Assembly: GCA_021850365.1 (NCBI GenBank)
Contig: JAJZMH010000001.1
Location: forward strand, 1-50,007
Length of the DNA stretch: 50,007 nt
Direction of reading: 5' to 3'
From: a bacterium
Lineage (GTDB): Bacteria > Patescibacteriota > Saccharimonadia > Saccharimonadales > UBA4665
The notes beneath the pieces were generated by a model, which made no database searches, was not told the origin of the DNA, and was given only the letters and a program-made list of their open reading frames with translations. Shown here piece after piece: positions 6,115 to 42,586 of the stretch; position 1 is the first letter of the stretch, and each line of letters opens with the position of its first letter. The position numbers and the translations under genes are program-made.

Positions 6115-7656
6115 ATGGATGATTTTAAAAAATTAACTAGAAACTCAAAAGATTTAGTTTTTGTAATCTTAGCAATTAATTTAATCATAATTTTTGGTAG
6201 TTTAGATATAGAATATTATTTATTCAATTTAAGCTTAGAACTGAGTTTATCTATATCTGGGTTACTCGGTGTACTATTTTTAGCCGTTTCATACCTAATA
6301 ATCCCTAAAATTTTACTTTCTCCAATTAAAATAATATGGTATACGATCTTAAAATTAAATCCCAACCAGGAAGGTTTAATGCCAAAAATTAACCAAAATA
6401 AAATATTAATTGGAAAAGAACTAGTCACTAATTTAATTGGTCAAATATATAATATTACAAACACAGTAAACCAAGATTTAATAAAAATCGAAGAAGAAAA
6501 AACGGATTTAAAAACAGATTTTTTGGCCAATAGAATACCTTTACCGATATTTGTTTTAGATAATAACGAAAATGTAAAATTCGTCAATAAATATGCAGCA
6601 ACTTATTTGGGTTTAGAAATAGACAATATTCTTAATAAAAATATTTATTCAATTTTAGAATTATCTTTTCCTTCTAATGACACCTTCGATACTTGGTTAA
6701 AAGATGCTAAGAACCATACTGCAATAAGTACCAAATCTTGGGAACGAGTTAAACTAAATCTTCAAGACAATCATCCTACCTTATATTTTGATATGGTTGC
6801 ATATTATAATCTAGGAAACACTGAGGGTTATTCAACAATAATTACTTTATTTGATCATACTAAACAATACTCCCAAGATGATCAGGCAATTAATTTTGTG
6901 GCAATTGCAATTCATGAACTTAGAACCCCCTTAACATTATTAAAAGGATATATAGAAGTTTTTAGCGATGAGTTAGAGGATAATTTAGATCCCGAATTAA
7001 AGTCGTTCGTTGAAAAAATGAAAGCTACCAATGACCAGTTAAATCTATTCGTAAACAATATTTTAAATGTTGCACGAATTGATAATGATGAAATGATTTT
7101 AAAACTTCATGCTCAATCCTGGGATAAAATTCTAACCGAAGCGATAGATAACATTAATCTTAGAGCGAAAGTTAGAGGTATTAATTTAGAGGTCAAAATA
7201 GATCCAAATATCCCCGAAGTAGGAATAGATAGGATAAGTATCCAAGAGGTACTCTATAATTTATTAGATAATGCCATCAAATACAGTAAAGATTCTAAAA
7301 AAATAATTATTAAATCCTATTTAAATGATGAAGGTTTTGTTGAAACAACCATTCAAGATTTCGGAAGGGGAATTCCAGAAAGTATTATTGGTAATTTATT
7401 TACCAAATTTTACCGAGATCATCATAATAGGTCACAAGTAGGAGGAACAGGACTGGGTCTATATATTTCAAAAGCAATCATAGATGCTCATCATGGGAAT
7501 ATTTGGGTCAAAAGTAAAGAAGGTGAAGGAAGTACTTTTGGATTCACCGTTTTACCTTTTGATTTATTGTCTAAGGAACAAAAAAACCTAGTCAATAACG
7601 AAATTATTCAGAATGCCCATGGTTGGATAAATAATCACTCATATTATAGACGCTAA
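6115..7656 (+). CDS. Membrane PAS-domain sensor histidine kinase
   Basis: 513 aa. Two hydrophobic segments at about 14-32 and 42-66 are separated by a very short loop, so the sensor is probably membrane-embedded or cytoplasmic. A PAS-type domain follows (about 135-240, starting IPLPIFVLDNNENVKFVNKY). HisKA carries the phospho-acceptor His in AIHELRTPLTLLKGY. The ATPase domain has the N box (NLLDNAIKYS), G1 (DFGRGIP) and G2 (GGTGLGLYISKAII). All catalytic motifs are intact. A receiver-only protein starts 28 bp downstream and is the obvious partner. The stimulus is unknown. Confidence 0.9.
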   Translation: MDDFKKLTRNSKDLVFVILAINLIIIFGSLDIEYYLFNLSLELSLSISGLLGVLFLAVSYLIIPKILLSPIKIIWYTILKLNPNQEGLMPKINQNKILIGKELVTNLIGQIYNITNTVNQDLIKIEEEKTDLKTDFLANRIPLPIFVLDNNENVKFVNKYAATYLGLEIDNILNKNIYSILELSFPSNDTFDTWLKDAKNHTAISTKSWERVKLNLQDNHPTLYFDMVAYYNLGNTEGYSTIITLFDHTKQYSQDDQAINFVAIAIHELRTPLTLLKGYIEVFSDELEDNLDPELKSFVEKMKATNDQLNLFVNNILNVARIDNDEMILKLHAQSWDKILTEAIDNINLRAKVRGINLEVKIDPNIPEVGIDRISIQEVLYNLLDNAIKYSKDSKKIIIKSYLNDEGFVETTIQDFGRGIPESIIGNLFTKFYRDHHNRSQVGGTGLGLYISKAIIDAHHGNIWVKSKEGEGSTFGFTVLPFDLLSKEQKNLVNNEIIQNAHGWINNHSYYRR

Positions 7657-7684
7657 AATTAAAATTATTTGATAAAGTATATAT

Positions 7685-8074
7685 ATGGACCAAAACGTAA
7701 AGACGAACAAAAAAATATTAGTCATAGAAGATGAACATTTTATTAGTGAACTTTACACTAGGGCACTTAATAATAACGGATATATAGTTAAAGTAGTATC
7801 AGATGGGGTAGAGGCACTCAAAGAATGTCAAACCGATCAGTACGATTTAATATTACTTGATTTGATGATCCCAAATATGACCGGATTTGAAATACTAAAT
7901 ATCTTAAGAGACCCTTCAAAATCTAAACCAATTCATTCAAAAATTATCATTACAACTAATCTTGAGCAGCGTGACGACATTAAAAAAGATATTGAAAAAA
8001 AAGCTGATGCCTATCTAATAAAAGCAAATTTAACTCCTAATGAATTAGTAGATTTTTTAGGACAAATTAAATAA
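7685..8074 (+). CDS. Single-domain response regulator (receiver only)
   Basis: 129 aa, a receiver domain with no output domain. It has the acidic pair in VIEDEHF, the phospho-acceptor Asp in LILLDLMIP and the conserved Lys in AYLIKAN. Stand-alone receivers act by protein-protein contact, as CheY or Spo0F do, or relay phosphate. It follows the kinase at 6115 and ends 2 bp before an NRAMP-related transporter, so it may be in one transcript with the metal transport genes. No DNA-binding domain is present, so it is not a direct transcription factor. Confidence 0.88.
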   Translation: MDQNVKTNKKILVIEDEHFISELYTRALNNNGYIVKVVSDGVEALKECQTDQYDLILLDLMIPNMTGFEILNILRDPSKSKPIHSKIIITTNLEQRDDIKKDIEKKADAYLIKANLTPNELVDFLGQIK

Positions 8075-13486: not shown

Positions 13487-14776
13487 ATGCACGATATTTT
13501 ATATATTTATGTACTGGGCATAGTTATTCTAATATTTGGAATAATTCTTATACTATTTCATGTCAGCTCAAAACATAATTCAACAAAAAATAAAGAGTCT
13601 TTTTCTAAACCTAGTTCAAAAGACTATAGTTTCATCTTTAACGCTATAGACGAAGGGATTATTGTAATAGATGCAAATCAAAATATTTCACTTTTTAATC
13701 CAGCTGCAACATCAATAACTGGATGGAAACAAGAAGATGCATTAAATTTAAATATTAAACTAGTTATTCAGCTTTTAGACAATAAAAATGAAACTATTGA
13801 TGATCAAAACAATCCTTTTATTCAAGTTTTTAGAACAAAACAAAATATTCGAAGTAATAATTTACAGATAGTTAATAAAGATAAAACACCGATATCCTTA
13901 TCTATAAATGCTTATCCAATTATTGAAAATGATCAAGTCATTTCCGCGATAATTTTACTCCGAAATATTACCGAAGAAAAAAGAGAAGAAGAGCAACTAG
14001 TAGACTTCATAAGTACTGCATCGCACGAAATGAGAACTCCAGTTGCTGCAATTGAAGGATATCTTTCTCTTGCCATGAATAGTAAAATATCTAACATTGA
14101 TGATAAGGTAAGGGGTTATCTTGAAAAAGCCCATCTTGCAACTTCTCACTTAGGTCAATTATTTCAAGATTTACTTACAAGTGCCAAAGCAGAGGATGGA
14201 AGATTGACGAATCATCCTCAAGTAATTGAATTAGGTGCATTTTTAAAACAATTAACTGAAGATTTAAGATTTAGTGCTCAAAAAAAAGGATTAAGTATTG
14301 ATTTTGTAGTTGGATCAGAAGAAAAAATAAAAAATGAGATAGTTAATGAGAAAAATATCCTACCTTTCTATTACGTTTATGCAGATCCAGATAGACTTAA
14401 TGAAGTTATTACTAATTTATTTGATAATGCCATTAAATTCACGTCCGAAGGCGGGATAACAATCGGTATTACTTCAGATCAAAATATAGTACAAATCTTT
14501 ATTAAAGATACTGGTATAGGAATACCGAGTGAAGATATAAACCACTTATTCCAAAAATTTTATAGAGTAGATAACTCAGCAACTAGAACAATCGGGGGAA
14601 CAGGGTTAGGATTGTTCATTGCTAAAAAAATTATTGAATTATATAACGGCAAAATATGGGTCGAAAGTGAATTAAAGAAAGGGAGTACTTTTTATATTAA
14701 CTTACCGAAGTTAACAGATGTACAGAGACAAGAACTAAGTCGTAATCAGTCGAATGAAAATAAGGATATTGGATAA
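13487..14776 (+). CDS. PAS-domain sensor histidine kinase, single N-terminal membrane helix
   Basis: 429 aa. One transmembrane helix at about 4-24 is followed by a PAS domain (about 48-160: FNAIDEGIIVIDANQNISLFNPAA through IILLRNITEE). HisKA has its His in STASHEMRTPVAAIEGYLSL. The ATPase domain has NLFDNAIKFTSEGG, DTGIGIPSED and GGTGLGLFIAKKIIELYNG. All catalytic motifs are intact. The receiver protein at 14830 follows after 53 bp and is the likely partner. With no extracellular loop, sensing is probably cytoplasmic or at the membrane face. Confidence 0.9.
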   Translation: MHDILYIYVLGIVILIFGIILILFHVSSKHNSTKNKESFSKPSSKDYSFIFNAIDEGIIVIDANQNISLFNPAATSITGWKQEDALNLNIKLVIQLLDNKNETIDDQNNPFIQVFRTKQNIRSNNLQIVNKDKTPISLSINAYPIIENDQVISAIILLRNITEEKREEEQLVDFISTASHEMRTPVAAIEGYLSLAMNSKISNIDDKVRGYLEKAHLATSHLGQLFQDLLTSAKAEDGRLTNHPQVIELGAFLKQLTEDLRFSAQKKGLSIDFVVGSEEKIKNEIVNEKNILPFYYVYADPDRLNEVITNLFDNAIKFTSEGGITIGITSDQNIVQIFIKDTGIGIPSEDINHLFQKFYRVDNSATRTIGGTGLGLFIAKKIIELYNGKIWVESELKKGSTFYINLPKLTDVQRQELSRNQSNENKDIG

Positions 14777-14829
14777 TTAAGTAATGTGTATTAAAATAAG
14801 CATAATAACTATAAACTAAAGAAGGAAAT

Positions 14830-16014
14830 ATGGCCAAAGTACTTTTAGTAGAAGACGACAACAATTTAAGGGAAATTTATGAAGCTCGGATGCAAGCAGA
14901 AGGATATGAAGTCTATTCCGCTCATGACGGAGAAGAGGCCCTTGTAGTTGCTAAAGCGCAATTACCAGATTTAATCATTGCAGACGTAATGATGCCTCGA
15001 ATAAGTGGATTTGAAATGCTCGATATCATCAGAAATACTGATGGACTTAGAGACGTAAAGGTAATCATGTTAACAGCCCTAGGTCAGAATGAAGATCAAA
15101 AAAGAGCCCAAAATTTAGGAGCAGACAAGTATTTAGTTAAATCTCAAGTAACCCTAGAAGATATAGTTAAAGCTGCTAATGATTTAATTCCTAAAAATGA
15201 GCAAATTAATAACCAAACAATTCAAACTTCCGACAATACTCAAGATTCAAATCTAGGAAGTGACACTTCTCCTGAATTATCAAATACAACACCAGCTCCT
15301 GGTATTACAACCATTAATCGACCTCCCCAGACTGAAAATATTCCCATGCCAAATGTTACACCTGATCAACAAAATCAGTCTGTTCCACAAGATCAAAATT
15401 TAAATGATACTCAGGCGCATAATGATCAGATTTTAGATAATGCTATTGAAGAATTATATTCAAATCCTGAGGTAGAACCTGATCAAAGTGAACCAGTTGT
15501 TCCTTTAAACGTCAGTCCCATTTCTACGCCGACGCAATCTCAGAACATTAATGTTGTAGAAGAGAATAATGCAGAACCACCAATAAATATTCAACCAGAT
15601 CAGAGTTCAGTAATTAACGACGATAGTGATAATCTTGAAGTAAATCAGGAAACTGAAAACCAAGAACAATCAGAAATAAGTCAAAAAATAGATAATTTTG
15701 AAGAAAATATTGCTCCGACTGAAGAAAATTATCAATCAACTGATCAGAACATACCAAAAACAAATGACTACCAAAACCAGACCCAAGAATCCAATGAGAC
15801 TGTTATCGATCAACCAAATTTCGAAAATATGAACAACAATCCAGTTGCTTCAGAAAATAATTATCCAACTCCAGAACCTACAAATCAGATCCCACAAGAT
15901 ACAGCACCAACACAACCAGAAGAAAATATTGCAAATCCTCCAGTTAATCAAATTCCTGTTGTCCATGTTCCTAGTCAAAATGAAAACAATCCAGATTCAA
16001 ATATTACTATATAA
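14830..16014 (+). CDS. Response regulator receiver with long disordered tail
   Basis: 394 aa. Residues 1 to about 125 are a standard receiver: VEDDNN, phospho-acceptor Asp in LIIADVMMPRISGFE, Thr in IMLTALGQ, and Lys in YLVKSQV. The remaining about 265 residues are low complexity, rich in Asn, Gln, Pro, Glu, Asp and Ser, with no predicted fold, membrane segment or HTH. A Shine-Dalgarno (AGAAGGA) precedes the ATG. The tail may be a flexible tether or a multivalent interaction region; that is speculation. The pseudouridine synthase starts 9 bp after the stop. Confidence 0.85.
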   Translation: MAKVLLVEDDNNLREIYEARMQAEGYEVYSAHDGEEALVVAKAQLPDLIIADVMMPRISGFEMLDIIRNTDGLRDVKVIMLTALGQNEDQKRAQNLGADKYLVKSQVTLEDIVKAANDLIPKNEQINNQTIQTSDNTQDSNLGSDTSPELSNTTPAPGITTINRPPQTENIPMPNVTPDQQNQSVPQDQNLNDTQAHNDQILDNAIEELYSNPEVEPDQSEPVVPLNVSPISTPTQSQNINVVEENNAEPPINIQPDQSSVINDDSDNLEVNQETENQEQSEISQKIDNFEENIAPTEENYQSTDQNIPKTNDYQNQTQESNETVIDQPNFENMNNNPVASENNYPTPEPTNQIPQDTAPTQPEENIANPPVNQIPVVHVPSQNENNPDSNITI

Positions 16015-35727: not shown

Positions 35728-35733
35728 ATTATA
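35728..35733 (-). promoter_or_regulatory. -10 box of glyS inside the end of recO
   Basis: TATAAT on the minus strand with +1 about 5 nt before the glyS ATG at 35716; it overlaps the recO stop codon. Confidence 0.35.
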
Positions 35734-36418
35734 TCTGAAGATAATTCTTAAAGATAGAATTAACTACTTTTTCTAGTTTTATATCTATCAAATGATCATT
35801 AGTAATTCTAAAAACTGTACTTGAATGTAACTTATCAAAAATTATTCTCAAATATTTAATATCATTTTGATCTAATTCACCTTCTAAATCCAATGCCATT
35901 TTGGCTAAATCAAACCTATATTTAATAGATGATCTCAGATTATGACCCTGAATATCTTCTTTTAGATTAGGGATTACGCCATTAAGCCTTAGGAAATTAG
36001 CAAAATACCAATTTTTTAGACGGATTAGATCAATATTTTGCTGATCTATTATATTCAAGAAATTATTCAATAATTTAAAAAATTCAGGATCGGCATTTTC
36101 TTCTATGTTCTTTTCTGTTATTCGTAGAATTTCAAATCCCAAAAATAACTTGTCTTGATCTAAAAGTATATTTTTATACCATTTATTTAATCTTGCTGAA
36201 GTTAAGACACCAAGACCCTTCTTTTGAGATGAAACATAACAAGCTTCAAATTGACCAAAAGGCTCGATACTACCAGCTAGTTTGGATTTGTGTTTCCTCA
36301 CACCTTTTGCAATTAAATCAATTTTTTTACCTTCACTAGTTAAGATTTTGATAATCTTGTCCGACTCTAAATAATTAGATCTTTTTAAAACAATTGCATC
36401 AACTTTAACTGGTAACAT
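35729..36418 (-). CDS. recO: DNA repair protein RecO
   Basis: 229 aa. The N-terminal OB fold (VDAIVLKRSNYLESDKIIKILTSEGKKIDLIAKGVRK, in two blocks) and a helical C-terminal half are typical. RecO anneals DNA and helps load RecA with RecR. The zinc-finger Cys residues found in many RecO proteins are absent. Its first 14 bases overlap the end of a degenerate receiver gene, which implies translational coupling with an unexpected signalling pair. Confidence 0.88.
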   Translation of the reverse strand: MLPVKVDAIVLKRSNYLESDKIIKILTSEGKKIDLIAKGVRKHKSKLAGSIEPFGQFEACYVSSQKKGLGVLTSARLNKWYKNILLDQDKLFLGFEILRITEKNIEENADPEFFKLLNNFLNIIDQQNIDLIRLKNWYFANFLRLNGVIPNLKEDIQGHNLRSSIKYRFDLAKMALDLEGELDQNDIKYLRIIFDKLHSSTVFRITNDHLIDIKLEKVVNSIFKNYLQI

Positions 36419-36797
36419 TCTTTACTACTATCTGATTTACAATATTCAATAATTCACTTAACGTCGTCTCAGGCTTATATAAAAATTCTGAAATATCAAA
36501 ATCATCTTTAATTCTAAACCAATTATTACTTAAATTATTAATTTTAACCATGCTTAAGATAATTATTTTTATATAATTTAAATCTGGGTATGACCTAATC
36601 TCTCTAAGTAATTCAACTCCAGAATTAGAGATTAATCTTAACTCTAAGATTATCAAATCAGGTTTATATTGATCAACTTTAAGCATCGCATCTTGAGCAT
36701 TATGGCTACAAAAAACCTCAAAACCATTTTTCGATAAAAAAGCAGAATAAGTACTTGCTAAAACTTTGTCTGGTTCTACGATCAAAATTTTTTGCAT
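36405..36797 (-). CDS. Pseudo-receiver protein (phospho-acceptor Asp replaced by Glu)
   Basis: 130 aa, receiver-only. The fold is evident (ILIVEPDKVLASTYSAFLSK, PDLIILELRLISNSGVELL, KIIILSMVK, FLYKPE), and the conserved Ser (82) and Lys (108) positions are kept. The phospho-acceptor is Glu at residue 52, and the usual acidic pair is interrupted (Glu-Pro-Asp). It probably cannot be phosphorylated normally; Glu can mimic the phosphorylated state. It overlaps recO by 14 bp and follows the degenerate kinase by 4 bp. Confidence 0.82.
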   Translation of the reverse strand: MQKILIVEPDKVLASTYSAFLSKNGFEVFCSHNAQDAMLKVDQYKPDLIILELRLISNSGVELLREIRSYPDLNYIKIIILSMVKINNLSNNWFRIKDDFDISEFLYKPETTLSELLNIVNQIVVKNVTS

Positions 36798-36801
36798 AGG
36801 T

Positions 36802-37506
36802 TTAAACCAGTTTAAGTTGCTGACTACAATTTAGAATAGCACCAAGTCCATATAAATTCTTATGTTTAGAAACTAACATATTTAATTTTAAAGAGTTAAA
36901 AAGATTATCAGCAATAAATATTCCTGCCCCAGAAGAATACAATAAGTTCTGTAATGGTTGAGATGACTTACCTTTATATTTTCTACCTTCTTTTAATAAT
37001 TTAGCGCTAATTTTTATATCCTCAGTATATATTCCCGCCACAACACCATGTCTGCTCCTGTGAGTAGCAAAATACAATGTCGGCTTAGCATTTGTAGCAA
37101 CAGCTTCTACTAAAGACATCCCCACACTTAGTATTGCAGACTCTAAAATTATCCTATTTCCCATAACTGGCGTTGTCTTATTTTCAACAAGAATCTTTAG
37201 ATCAACACCGTACATCTTAGCTAAATTCTCTAAATATTGGGCTGAGTTATTTAAAACGGTAGAGACCAAAAATGTTTCGGGATAATAATCAATTTCTTGA
37301 TTTTCTATCTTTAAACTTAGGATATAATTATCAATCAATTTAATAGCATACTCTGCGGATATTTTTGCATTATTTAAATGATGAAGCTTAGCGTCGAATG
37401 TACTTAATTCTAATTGTTTAATGATTTGCAAAAAAGGTAATTTTAGCTGTTCGACAAGATTAATTGTAGAAGCATAAATTTCTTTATTTTGATTGCCACT
37501 AGACAT
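36802..37506 (-). CDS. Degenerate histidine-kinase-like protein
   Basis: About 234 aa from the ATG at 37506 (an earlier start at 37542 is possible). The layout matches the HisKA-HATPase core without sensor or membrane helix. LVEQLKLPFLQIIKQ aligns with the H box but lacks His. AIKLIDNYILSLKIEN fits the second HisKA helix. NRIILESAILSVGMSLVEAV takes the place of the N box but lacks its Asn, and no DxGxG is seen. SSGAGIFIADNLFNSL resembles G2. The key catalytic residues are lost, so it is likely a scaffolding pseudokinase acting with the pseudo-receiver 4 bp downstream. The assignment rests on my alignment by eye. Confidence 0.6.
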   Translation of the reverse strand: MSSGNQNKEIYASTINLVEQLKLPFLQIIKQLELSTFDAKLHHLNNAKISAEYAIKLIDNYILSLKIENQEIDYYPETFLVSTVLNNSAQYLENLAKMYGVDLKILVENKTTPVMGNRIILESAILSVGMSLVEAVATNAKPTLYFATHRSRHGVVAGIYTEDIKISAKLLKEGRKYKGKSSQPLQNLLYSSGAGIFIADNLFNSLKLNMLVSKHKNLYGLGAILNCSQQLKLV

Positions 37507-37613
37507 TAATTTGTATCCCTCGTTTTTATAATATTGTAACATGTCTTGGTATATTCCCTAAAACATTAAAAGGAATAAGAAAATCAAATTTTTTTAGTTT
37601 AATAAATTATTAC

Positions 37614-38279
37614 CTAGGGTGAAAATGTAATATTTGGTAGAATTTGGGTATTGAAAATATTTAAAAATTGACTTCCCTCTGTCCAAATTTCTAATGATTC
37701 ATTTCTAAGAGGTAAGATAATTTCAGTTGACTGTTTTTGACTATTTTCGAGCATTTCACCTACTACCTTTATACCGACAACAGAAGGTACTTTAGGCAAA
37801 GAATAGGCGGTTATACTAACTAAATTAGATTGCTGTAAAGAGTCATACTGTTGCAAAAGTGTAGCATAAGGAGACGGATTAACTCTAAATCTTAAGGCGA
37901 AATTAAGACTATTGCTATCACTAACCGTACTTAATATGCCGGGGCTAAAATAGCCATCAATCGGATAATTACTATCCGTGGTATTGATATAAGCACTCCA
38001 ATTTTTAGGATATTGAATACTTATACTTCCGTATTGTTCCGGTCCAACATAGCTCGTTAATGGTAATTCTGATTGTACCGCAAAATTAGCATTATCTATC
38101 TTTAACTGTGTAGCTTTTGCCTGAGCAACTGCCTGATTAATTAAAATCTGATCATTATTTTTATAATTCTGCTTACCTTCAAATGCCCATATAAATAGAA
38201 CCGCAAAGATAATAACCAAAAAGCCAGATATAATTAGAGCAACAGTGCTAAGCAAAGAACCATCTTGGTTATGTTTCAT
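37614..38279 (-). CDS. Membrane-anchored exported protein, unknown
   Basis: 221 aa. One N-terminal helix (LLSTVALIISGFLVIIFAVLFIWAF) anchors an outer domain. A short Gln/Ala-rich coil follows, then a beta-rich part with SISIQYPKNWSAYINTT, a pattern seen in PsbP-like or lipoprotein-type domains of unknown role. No catalytic motif is seen. It lies between the pseudokinase and xseB on the same strand with its own 70-bp spacer. I do not recognise a named family. Confidence 0.6.
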   Translation of the reverse strand: MKHNQDGSLLSTVALIISGFLVIIFAVLFIWAFEGKQNYKNNDQILINQAVAQAKATQLKIDNANFAVQSELPLTSYVGPEQYGSISIQYPKNWSAYINTTDSNYPIDGYFSPGILSTVSDSNSLNFALRFRVNPSPYATLLQQYDSLQQSNLVSITAYSLPKVPSVVGIKVVGEMLENSQKQSTEIILPLRNESLEIWTEGSQFLNIFNTQILPNITFSP

Positions 38280-38319: not shown

Positions 38320-38517
38320 CTATTCTATTTTGATTTTCTTAACCTTAATTTTTGTATCAGAAATATATTTTTTTAATTCTCTAATAAGTTCAGTTGCCCG
38401 TTGATATTTAATAATCATCTTATCAACATCTACACTACTAGATTGAAGATCCACAATAATTCCATCTAGTTCAGCCATCAATTGATTAAAATTTTTAGAA
38501 TCTTTTTTACTAATCAT
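38320..38517 (-). CDS. xseB: Exodeoxyribonuclease VII small subunit
   Basis: 65 aa, two-helix protein with NFNQLMAELDGIIVDLQSSS and DKMIIKYQRATELIRELKKY, as in XseB. Several copies wrap the C-terminal helix of XseA to make the active nuclease, which degrades single-stranded DNA. Its start overlaps the end of xseA by 4 bp, the usual coupled arrangement. Confidence 0.88.
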   Translation of the reverse strand: MISKKDSKNFNQLMAELDGIIVDLQSSSVDVDKMIIKYQRATELIRELKKYISDTKIKVKKIKIE

Positions 38518-39611
38518 TTTTTAACTTCTACCTTAACTTCTCCATTATACAGTCTAACGCTTAAAATATCTTTATTTTTAAGATTTCTATCATCTTTTAT
38601 AAGTATTCCTTTTTTACGAACAATAGAAAATCCTTTTTGGAGAATATTGTCTAAATTAAATGCCTCTACAACTATCTCTTTATTTTCAAGTAAACGAGTT
38701 ATCGAATTTAGGGTATTATTCATTTCAGATTCAATAGTTTTTTCTTTATAAATTAATTGCTCGAAATTATAATTCAGAGTTTCTGACACTCGCTTTTGCA
38801 ATAAAAGATCGTTTTTATTTAAGTTTTCTAAAATATTTACTTGATTTGGAACCAACTCTTCAGCTGCATTACTTGGTGTTGATGCTCTAGAGTCTGCAGC
38901 TAATTCGGCTAAACAAACGTCAATTTCATGCCCAATCGCAACCATAGTAGGTATTGTTGACTTACTAATTGCCCTGGTTAAATCTTCGTCATTGAATACA
39001 GATAAATCATCTAAACTACCTCCTCCTCTAATTAGAACAATTACTTCTATATCTTTGTTTTTTTGACAAAAATCTATAGCCTTTATTATTTGATCTTTTG
39101 AATTCTCACCCTGTACTAATACATCTATGACTTCAATCTTGATGGCAGGCCAACGATTTTTAATTATTTTAATAAAATCTGCATATGCAGCAGATTGAGT
39201 TGAAGTGATTAAACATATCTTTTCGGGTGGATAAGGTAGTCTTCTTTTTTTATTTATATCAAATAGTCCTTCGAGTTCGAGTTTATTTTTTAATAATTCT
39301 AGAGATTTTTTAATACTTCCCTCTCCAAATGGTTGAACGGAATAAAAATTCAAACTAAAACCAAATAAATTATGCATTTTTGGTTTTGCTACGACTCTAA
39401 CTAACATCCCATCTTCCAGATTAGACTTTAGATTATTAATTGATCCAAAAAAATTAACCGAACAATTATTATCTTTAAGATTAAAATATACCCATTGATT
39501 TTTACGAATCTTAAATTCACTAATCTCGCCAATAATGCTTACATAATGAAAAGAATTATCTAATGAAATATTCAGTAAATTAATAAACTCCGATACTGTA
39601 TAATCTTCCAT
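38514..39611 (-). CDS. xseA: Exodeoxyribonuclease VII large subunit
   Basis: 365 aa, somewhat short for the family (about 400-450). The N-terminal OB fold (about 1-100) starts YTVSEFINLLN. The catalytic domain contains ICLITSTQSAAYADFIKII, VIVLIRGGGSLDDLSVFNDE, PTMVAIGHEIDVCLAELAAD and SRASTPSNAAE. A helical C-terminus (shortened) follows for XseB binding. It follows the membrane protein at 39615 by 3 bp. Confidence 0.95.
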   Translation of the reverse strand: MEDYTVSEFINLLNISLDNSFHYVSIIGEISEFKIRKNQWVYFNLKDNNCSVNFFGSINNLKSNLEDGMLVRVVAKPKMHNLFGFSLNFYSVQPFGEGSIKKSLELLKNKLELEGLFDINKKRRLPYPPEKICLITSTQSAAYADFIKIIKNRWPAIKIEVIDVLVQGENSKDQIIKAIDFCQKNKDIEVIVLIRGGGSLDDLSVFNDEDLTRAISKSTIPTMVAIGHEIDVCLAELAADSRASTPSNAAEELVPNQVNILENLNKNDLLLQKRVSETLNYNFEQLIYKEKTIESEMNNTLNSITRLLENKEIVVEAFNLDNILQKGFSIVRKKGILIKDDRNLKNKDILSVRLYNGEVKVEVKK

Positions 39612-41919: not shown

Positions 41920-42192
41920 ATGTCTCACGTAAAAGCAGGTGGCACATCTAAGAATATTCATGATTCACCAGGTCAAAGACTTGGGGTAAAAATATTTGGT
42001 GGCCAAAAAGTTAAAATTGGCCAAGTAATTGTTCGCCAAGTCGGTATGACAAAAAGACCAGGAAAAGGTACGAAAATGAGTAGAAATTTTACTATTCATG
42101 CGAACAAAGATGGAGTCGTTGAATATAACTCTAAGAAAATTAGAACATTTAGCAATAAAAGTGTTTATCGAACCGAAGTAAGCGTTAAGTAG
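41920..42192 (+). CDS. rpmA: 50S ribosomal protein L27
   Basis: 90 aa, usual size. It lies near the peptidyl-transferase centre and contacts tRNA CCA ends with its N-terminal tail. MSHVKAGGTSKNIHDSPGQ and RLGVKIFGGQKVKIGQVIVRQ are the conserved core, somewhat diverged. A Shine-Dalgarno (AAAAGGA) precedes the ATG. The usual partner gene rplU (L21) is not adjacent. Its last 8 bases overlap the convergent response-regulator gene. Confidence 0.93.
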   Translation: MSHVKAGGTSKNIHDSPGQRLGVKIFGGQKVKIGQVIVRQVGMTKRPGKGTKMSRNFTIHANKDGVVEYNSKKIRTFSNKSVYRTEVSVK

Positions 42193-42586
42193 CGGGATTA
42201 TCCATATTGAGATGGTGGCGAATTCTAGCCACTACATCAGCTATAACTACTTGAGATTTCACTAAATAGTCATCAACACCTAAGCTTTGAGCTCTCTCTT
42301 TGTCACTATCCTGGCTTAATGCTGTTAACATAATAATCTTTAAATTAGTTGTTTCAGGAGTGTTCCTAAGGATATCTAAAACATCGAAACCACTAACTTT
42401 AGGCATCATCACATCTAATAATATAAGGTCTGGCTTGTAGCTTAATGCATCTGCTAAAGCGTCTTCACCATTTGCAACTCTCCGTACATCAAAACCCTCA
42501 GCCTGTAATCTGGAAACGTAAACATTGGCAAGAGCATCATCATCTTCAACTAACAATATTCTTTTTGGATTTTTATCAGGTTTCAT
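42185..42586 (-). CDS. Single-domain response regulator (receiver only)
   Basis: 133 aa. The acidic pair is in LLVEDDDAL, the phospho-acceptor Asp in LILLDVMMPKVSGFDVL, Thr in IIMLTALSQ, and Lys in YLVKSQV. It is close in sequence to the receiver part of the protein at 14830 (GFDVLDILRNT/GFEMLDIIRNT, DYLVKSQV/KYLVKSQV), suggesting they are paralogues. No kinase is adjacent. It overlaps the end of rpmA by 8 bp. Confidence 0.9.
   Translation of the reverse strand: MKPDKNPKRILLVEDDDALANVYVSRLQAEGFDVRRVANGEDALADALSYKPDLILLDVMMPKVSGFDVLDILRNTPETTNLKIIMLTALSQDSDKERAQSLGVDDYLVKSQVVIADVVARIRHHLNMDNPAT

Follow-up and report, generated by a model that had tools for sequence, protein, structure and literature searches.

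The kinase, receiver and recO genes of the window

The stretch of DNA analyzed here, hereafter the window, comprises 50,007 nucleotides (positions 1 to 50,007 of contig JAJZMH010000001.1, assembly GCA_021850365.1) from a bacterium of the lineage Patescibacteriota; Saccharimonadia; Saccharimonadales; UBA4665. On its minus strand lie the genes for a membrane protein, a histidine kinase-like protein, a receiver and RecO. The original prediction, made from the sequence alone, was that the kinase and the receiver had both lost their phosphotransfer residues and formed a phosphate-free, binding-based pair linked to DNA repair or housekeeping. The features of the locus are as follows.

37614..38279, minus strand: predicted single-pass membrane protein with a PsbP/LpqN-like domain; conserved upstream neighbor and candidate input
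36802..37542, minus strand: pseudo-histidine-kinase, 246 amino acids (aa), DHp hairpin plus GHKL domain, without a membrane segment (open reading frame [ORF], AlphaFold2 model, fold and profile comparison)
37450..37452, minus strand: Glu31 codon, at the phospho-acceptor His position of the kinase (alignment)
36405..36797, minus strand: pseudo-receiver, 130 aa, single domain, without an output domain (ORF, PF00072 match)
36642..36644, minus strand: Glu52 codon, at the phospho-Asp position of the receiver (alignment)
36405..36418, minus strand: 14-bp overlap of the receiver gene and recO (ORF coordinates)
35729..36418, minus strand: recO, conserved downstream neighbor (TIGR00613, 79.4 bits, over the cutoff)

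A scan for promoters and terminators returned nothing above shuffled sequences.

The HisKA-HATPase outline originally proposed for the 246-aa protein was borne out by structure prediction and homology. The AlphaFold2 model, built from 49 sequences (predicted local distance difference test score 90, predicted template modeling score 0.86), has the fold of a canonical two-component kinase, i.e., a two-helix DHp hairpin followed by a GHKL domain, and hence not one unrelated to HATPase. The first ~14 residues are disordered, and Met13 is a possible alternative start. When the model was compared with known structures using Foldseek and VIA-align, histidine kinases ranked top; DivL (PDB 4q20) gave the highest VIA Z, 17.9 over 223 aligned residues, with the HK853 complexes and RetS below it. 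Neither Pfam nor NCBIfam gave a kinase match for the window protein, and no kinase model matched any of 49 relatives, so the kinase homology rests on the fold and on profile-profile comparison, in which the window-type kinases matched intact relatives from the same locus at P 99.7 and E 1e-25. In that alignment VEQLKLPFLQI of the window type pairs with AHELKAPLALI of the intact relatives, which places Glu31 at the phospho-His position.

The catalytic residues are missing, as had been claimed. In the window kinase itself the phospho-acceptor His, the N-box Asn, the G1 Asp and the G1 Gly are all gone; judged by sequence, the contact of an Asp to adenine is lost. The protein thus combines kinase fold and homology with the absence of the phospho-acceptor His that defines a pseudo-histidine-kinase. 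Of the 79 window-type rows of the alignment, 72 have Glu in place of the His, one retains the N-box Asn and two the G1 Asp. The stretch around the former His, AEQLKLPLLQI, is strongly conserved, and E31, E45, Y73, G166, G170 and G232 are residues newly conserved in the window type.

The 130-aa protein matches the receiver domain PF00072 at 1e-12; as originally reported, it carries Glu52 instead of the phospho-Asp, and its gene shares 14 bp with recO. Its second Mg-binding acid is replaced by Pro9. It therefore lacks the phospho-Asp and the full pair of Mg-binding acids of a canonical receiver and belongs with the pseudo-receivers (aspartate-less receivers). The phospho-Asp is replaced by Glu in 97% of the window type, and 76 of the 79 rows have Glu-Pro as the acid pair; the active-site Ser/Thr is kept in 78 and the Lys (Lys108) in 77. 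New near-invariant residues (H58, G60, E66, S69, Y70, W73 and Y107) surround the old active site, forming the patch HSGIEFLYEFRSYxxW plus YK. Overall, the pseudo-receiver is constrained like intact receivers (mean entropy, 1.98 versus 2.09).

Descent of the pair from a working two-component system

The losses, whose conservation in relatives the original prediction had proposed to check, proved to be conserved over a large clade. In a tree built on RecO and the upstream membrane protein, with the kinase and the receiver left out, all 76 window-type loci form one clade (Shimodaira-Hasegawa-like approximate likelihood ratio test support, 99) spanning at least 18 families, with intact families branching below it. 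The His is absent from all 76 members, and the receiver Asp is also gone in 71; identical residue losses over at least 18 families are not due to chance. A kinase homologue was present in all 39 of the nearest genomes, and the gene order membrane protein, kinase, receiver, recO was kept in nearly all loci fetched, the gap between kinase and receiver being at most 20 bp in 74 of the 76.

At this locus the deepest branches carry both His and Asp intact. In f18, the largest family of the sample, a short kinase bearing His, Asn and DxG is accompanied by an Asp-bearing receiver; the short kinase of family f34 also has the His. In other orders of the class an intact receiver lies next to or near recO, in several cases with a canonical kinase of 800 to 1,100 aa beside it. 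Relatives with intact His and Asp had been thought to speak against the pair; they do occur, in the deeper lineages and in f18, and they show descent from a working system, so that the finding stands. Intact residues at the same locus in deeper relatives, together with a single window-type clade, place the conversion of a functional two-component system near the base of this large clade within the Saccharimonadales.

The losses behave as those of a linked pair, the Asp being lost only where the His is lost. Among 201 loci, 112 were intact, 75 lacked the His, the Asp and the second acid, 9 lacked the His and the second acid, 3 the His only and 2 the second acid only; none had lost the Asp while keeping the His. 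The Asp was thus missing from 75 of 87 His-less loci versus 0 of 114 His-bearing loci. The fewest changes on the tree were 7 for the His, 3 to 4 for the Asp and 7 for the second acid. Outside the window-type clade there were about six smaller His losses, and the direction of loss was the same in every case.

Some loci outside the clade are worth recording separately. In L146, L148 and L237 (genus g57 of f18) an independent conversion has replaced the His with Gly or Gln, the receiver Asp with Ser and the Lys with Ser, while the kinase Asn and DxG remain. In another f18 genome (G145; L156:2380-3447, minus strand) kinase and receiver form one ORF of 355 aa, of the intact type with His and Asp. 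This single-frame protein suggests that the ancestral pair may have worked together, although it occurs in a single genome and an assembly error is possible. The receiver ORFs of L248 and L252 are apparently long; we do not claim them as fusions.

A proposed phosphate-free binding pair and its alternatives

When both kinase and receiver are dead yet remain adjacent and constrained, the simplest reading is a binding module. We therefore put at about even the chances that this is a former two-component system which, having lost phosphotransfer in both partners, would be kept as a phosphate-free module working by conformational binding. The pseudokinase would form a DHp dimer and still dock the receiver at the old His site. 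Glu52, as a putative phosphate mimic, together with the retained Ser/Thr and Lys108, would bias the receiver toward an active-like conformation; this set of residues is the one expected of a receiver locked in such a state. A signal, either a ligand or contact with the upstream-encoded PsbP-like membrane protein, might alter the shape of the pseudokinase, which could then free or hold the receiver for binding to another protein. Since the receiver has no output domain, its output is probably such a protein contact, RecO being the nearest but only one candidate.

Several observations weigh against this reading. The idea that Glu at the Asp site acts as a mimic is discussed in PMC12632262, according to which it failed for some pseudo-receivers. 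The His has been lost independently about seven times, and the paired loss of His and Asp is not significant (sign test on independent pairs, median p 0.125 to 1), because there are too few independent events. In family f23 (five loci, L265 to L269) the His is replaced by Asp, Asn or Glu while the receiver Asp is present; the two losses thus do not always go together. Interprotein covariation gave no signal for the window type; the intact positive-control set gave none either, and the analysis is therefore uninformative.

The pair might also have come apart functionally, with the pseudokinase acting in trans on intact two-component proteins other than its neighbor, the pseudo-receiver being separate and constitutively active, and the two genes remaining neighbors by descent only. 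DivL, which binds DivK~P, and RetS, which binds GacS, are among the best fold matches, and the genome encodes intact kinases and receivers elsewhere, including an intact-Asp receiver 5.4 kb upstream. The tight adjacency of the genes and the confinement of Asp loss to His-less loci point the other way, yet both are compatible with action in trans all the same; we consider this explanation rather unlikely, if the strongest of the competitors. Phosphate chemistry could instead persist through another residue or an outside kinase, e.g., if the receiver is phosphorylated on Ser/Thr. Its Ser69 is conserved at 97%, but we found no support for such a route, no alternative acceptor is apparent, and the kinase lacks the adenine-contacting Asp and the N-box Asn; we rate this route as very improbable.

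Scarcely credible is the view that the two genes are relics of a vanished two-component system, decaying in the course of genome reduction. The genomes are small, f18 shows several independent His losses, and three f18 kinase hits contain stop codons. No stop codons were found in the kinase hits of the 39 nearest genomes in the window clade, however, and the ratio of nonsynonymous to synonymous substitution rates in the closest pairs was 0.02 to 0.12 for the kinase and 0.07 to 0.14 for the receiver, comparable with recO and indicative of strong purifying selection, although the ratio was usable in a few close pairs only, synonymous sites being saturated in most. With this selection, the new invariant residues and the spread over at least 18 families, we rejected decay of the two genes in the window clade. 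The three interrupted hits (G178, G201 and G492) all belong to f18 genus g47, where decay is possibly real.

The link to recO is conserved, a point that the original prediction had singled out for checking. In almost every Saccharimonadales locus checked, and in the majority of those from other orders of the class, the receiver gene is immediately followed by recO. The two genes overlap, mostly by 4 bp, in 68 of the 76 window-type loci and in 67 of 76 intact ones. Together with the presence in the genome of recR, so that RecO can have its usual partner, this would fit a pair whose receiver binds RecO directly and so regulates it specifically, in recombination or natural transformation. The linkage also occurs with intact receivers in other orders, and is thus older than the losses; it therefore does not demonstrate a role for the pair in DNA repair and may reflect operon position only. 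Outside the class a receiver lay near recO in only 2 of 29 recO loci, and many loci have glyS after recO, which makes the cluster functionally mixed. A few window-type loci (L045 and L059) have no recognized recO beside the kinase and receiver. We regard specific control of RecO as distinctly unlikely. Of the original proposal, then, the phosphate-free binding pair stands as the best reading, given the fold, the conserved losses and the selection, while its DNA-repair role is unproven. As an observation in its own right, L045 and L059 show that the kinase-receiver pair can stand without recO.

Known systems and other two-component genes

Pseudo-histidine-kinases and pseudo-receivers are already established singly. 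According to a 2025 review (PMC12632262), 0.9% of HisKA domains lack the His and 2.0% of receivers lack the Asp; of 20 described bacterial pseudo-receiver cases only CmrT and FrzS are not orphans, and the review calls the on-off switching of bacterial pseudo-receivers a mystery. DivL of Caulobacter crescentus, like the window kinase, has the kinase fold but carries a residue other than His where the phospho-acceptor should be; it lacks kinase and phosphatase activity yet dimerizes and binds its receiver via the usual docking surface (PMC4211667). Unlike the window pair, DivL has PAS domains, retains ATP binding and reads the intact, phosphorylated DivK~P. The window kinase has no N-terminal PAS sensor (its 246 aa have no Pfam match and the DHp helix starts at residue 15), its ATP residues appear to be lost, and its neighboring receiver is dead too. 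RetS of Pseudomonas aeruginosa, another of the best fold matches, is known to act noncanonically by binding (PMC12148439); its target is another kinase, GacS, rather than a paired dead receiver.

On the receiver side, FrzS, CmrT and the plant pseudo-response regulators (PMC12632262, PMC4395418) likewise match PF00072 without the phospho-Asp, Glu being the commonest replacement. CmrT is accompanied by an otherwise normal kinase and receiver, whereas the kinase adjacent to the window receiver is equally dead. The closest comparison is the intact short kinase-receiver pair of other Saccharimonadales (e.g., L127 to L140), with the same locus, gene order and length and clear homology, but with the His, Asn, DxG and receiver Asp all present.

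In agreement with the original prediction, which knew of no system of this sort, we found in the open-access literature no described cognate operon pair with both partners dead and no such recO-linked locus. What we describe may be the first case in which an entire cognate system can be traced turning into a phosphate-free pair, fixed in a clade of many families, acting by conformational binding and possibly controlling RecO, a composite claim that we rate at somewhat less than an even chance. Nearly all characterized pseudo-receivers are orphans, whereas that of the window type is accompanied by a kinase of its own that is just as dead. As the locus occurs in relatives in intact, partly converted and completely converted form, the switching question becomes testable with and without phosphate chemistry. 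More broadly, a signaling pair can outlive its own chemistry across a large bacterial lineage, here the Saccharibacteria, which are tiny parasitic bacteria.

There has been no wholesale loss of two-component signaling, as the genome has other HATPase kinases and six other receivers. The intact-Asp receiver 5.4 kb upstream is a second single-domain protein (window 42185-42586, minus strand), and in many relatives a receiver is found about as far from the recO-linked one (e.g., G007 C3:13452 and C3:6259). At window 13487-16014 (plus strand) an intact PAS-HisKA-HATPase kinase is followed by a 394-aa receiver whose long, low-complexity tail abounds in Gln, Asn and Pro, and at 6115-8074 (plus strand) a kinase ORF with a HATPase match precedes an intact receiver. 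Window 38320-39611 (minus strand) encodes the exonuclease VII large subunit and, directly after it, a 65-aa ORF that is probably the small subunit.
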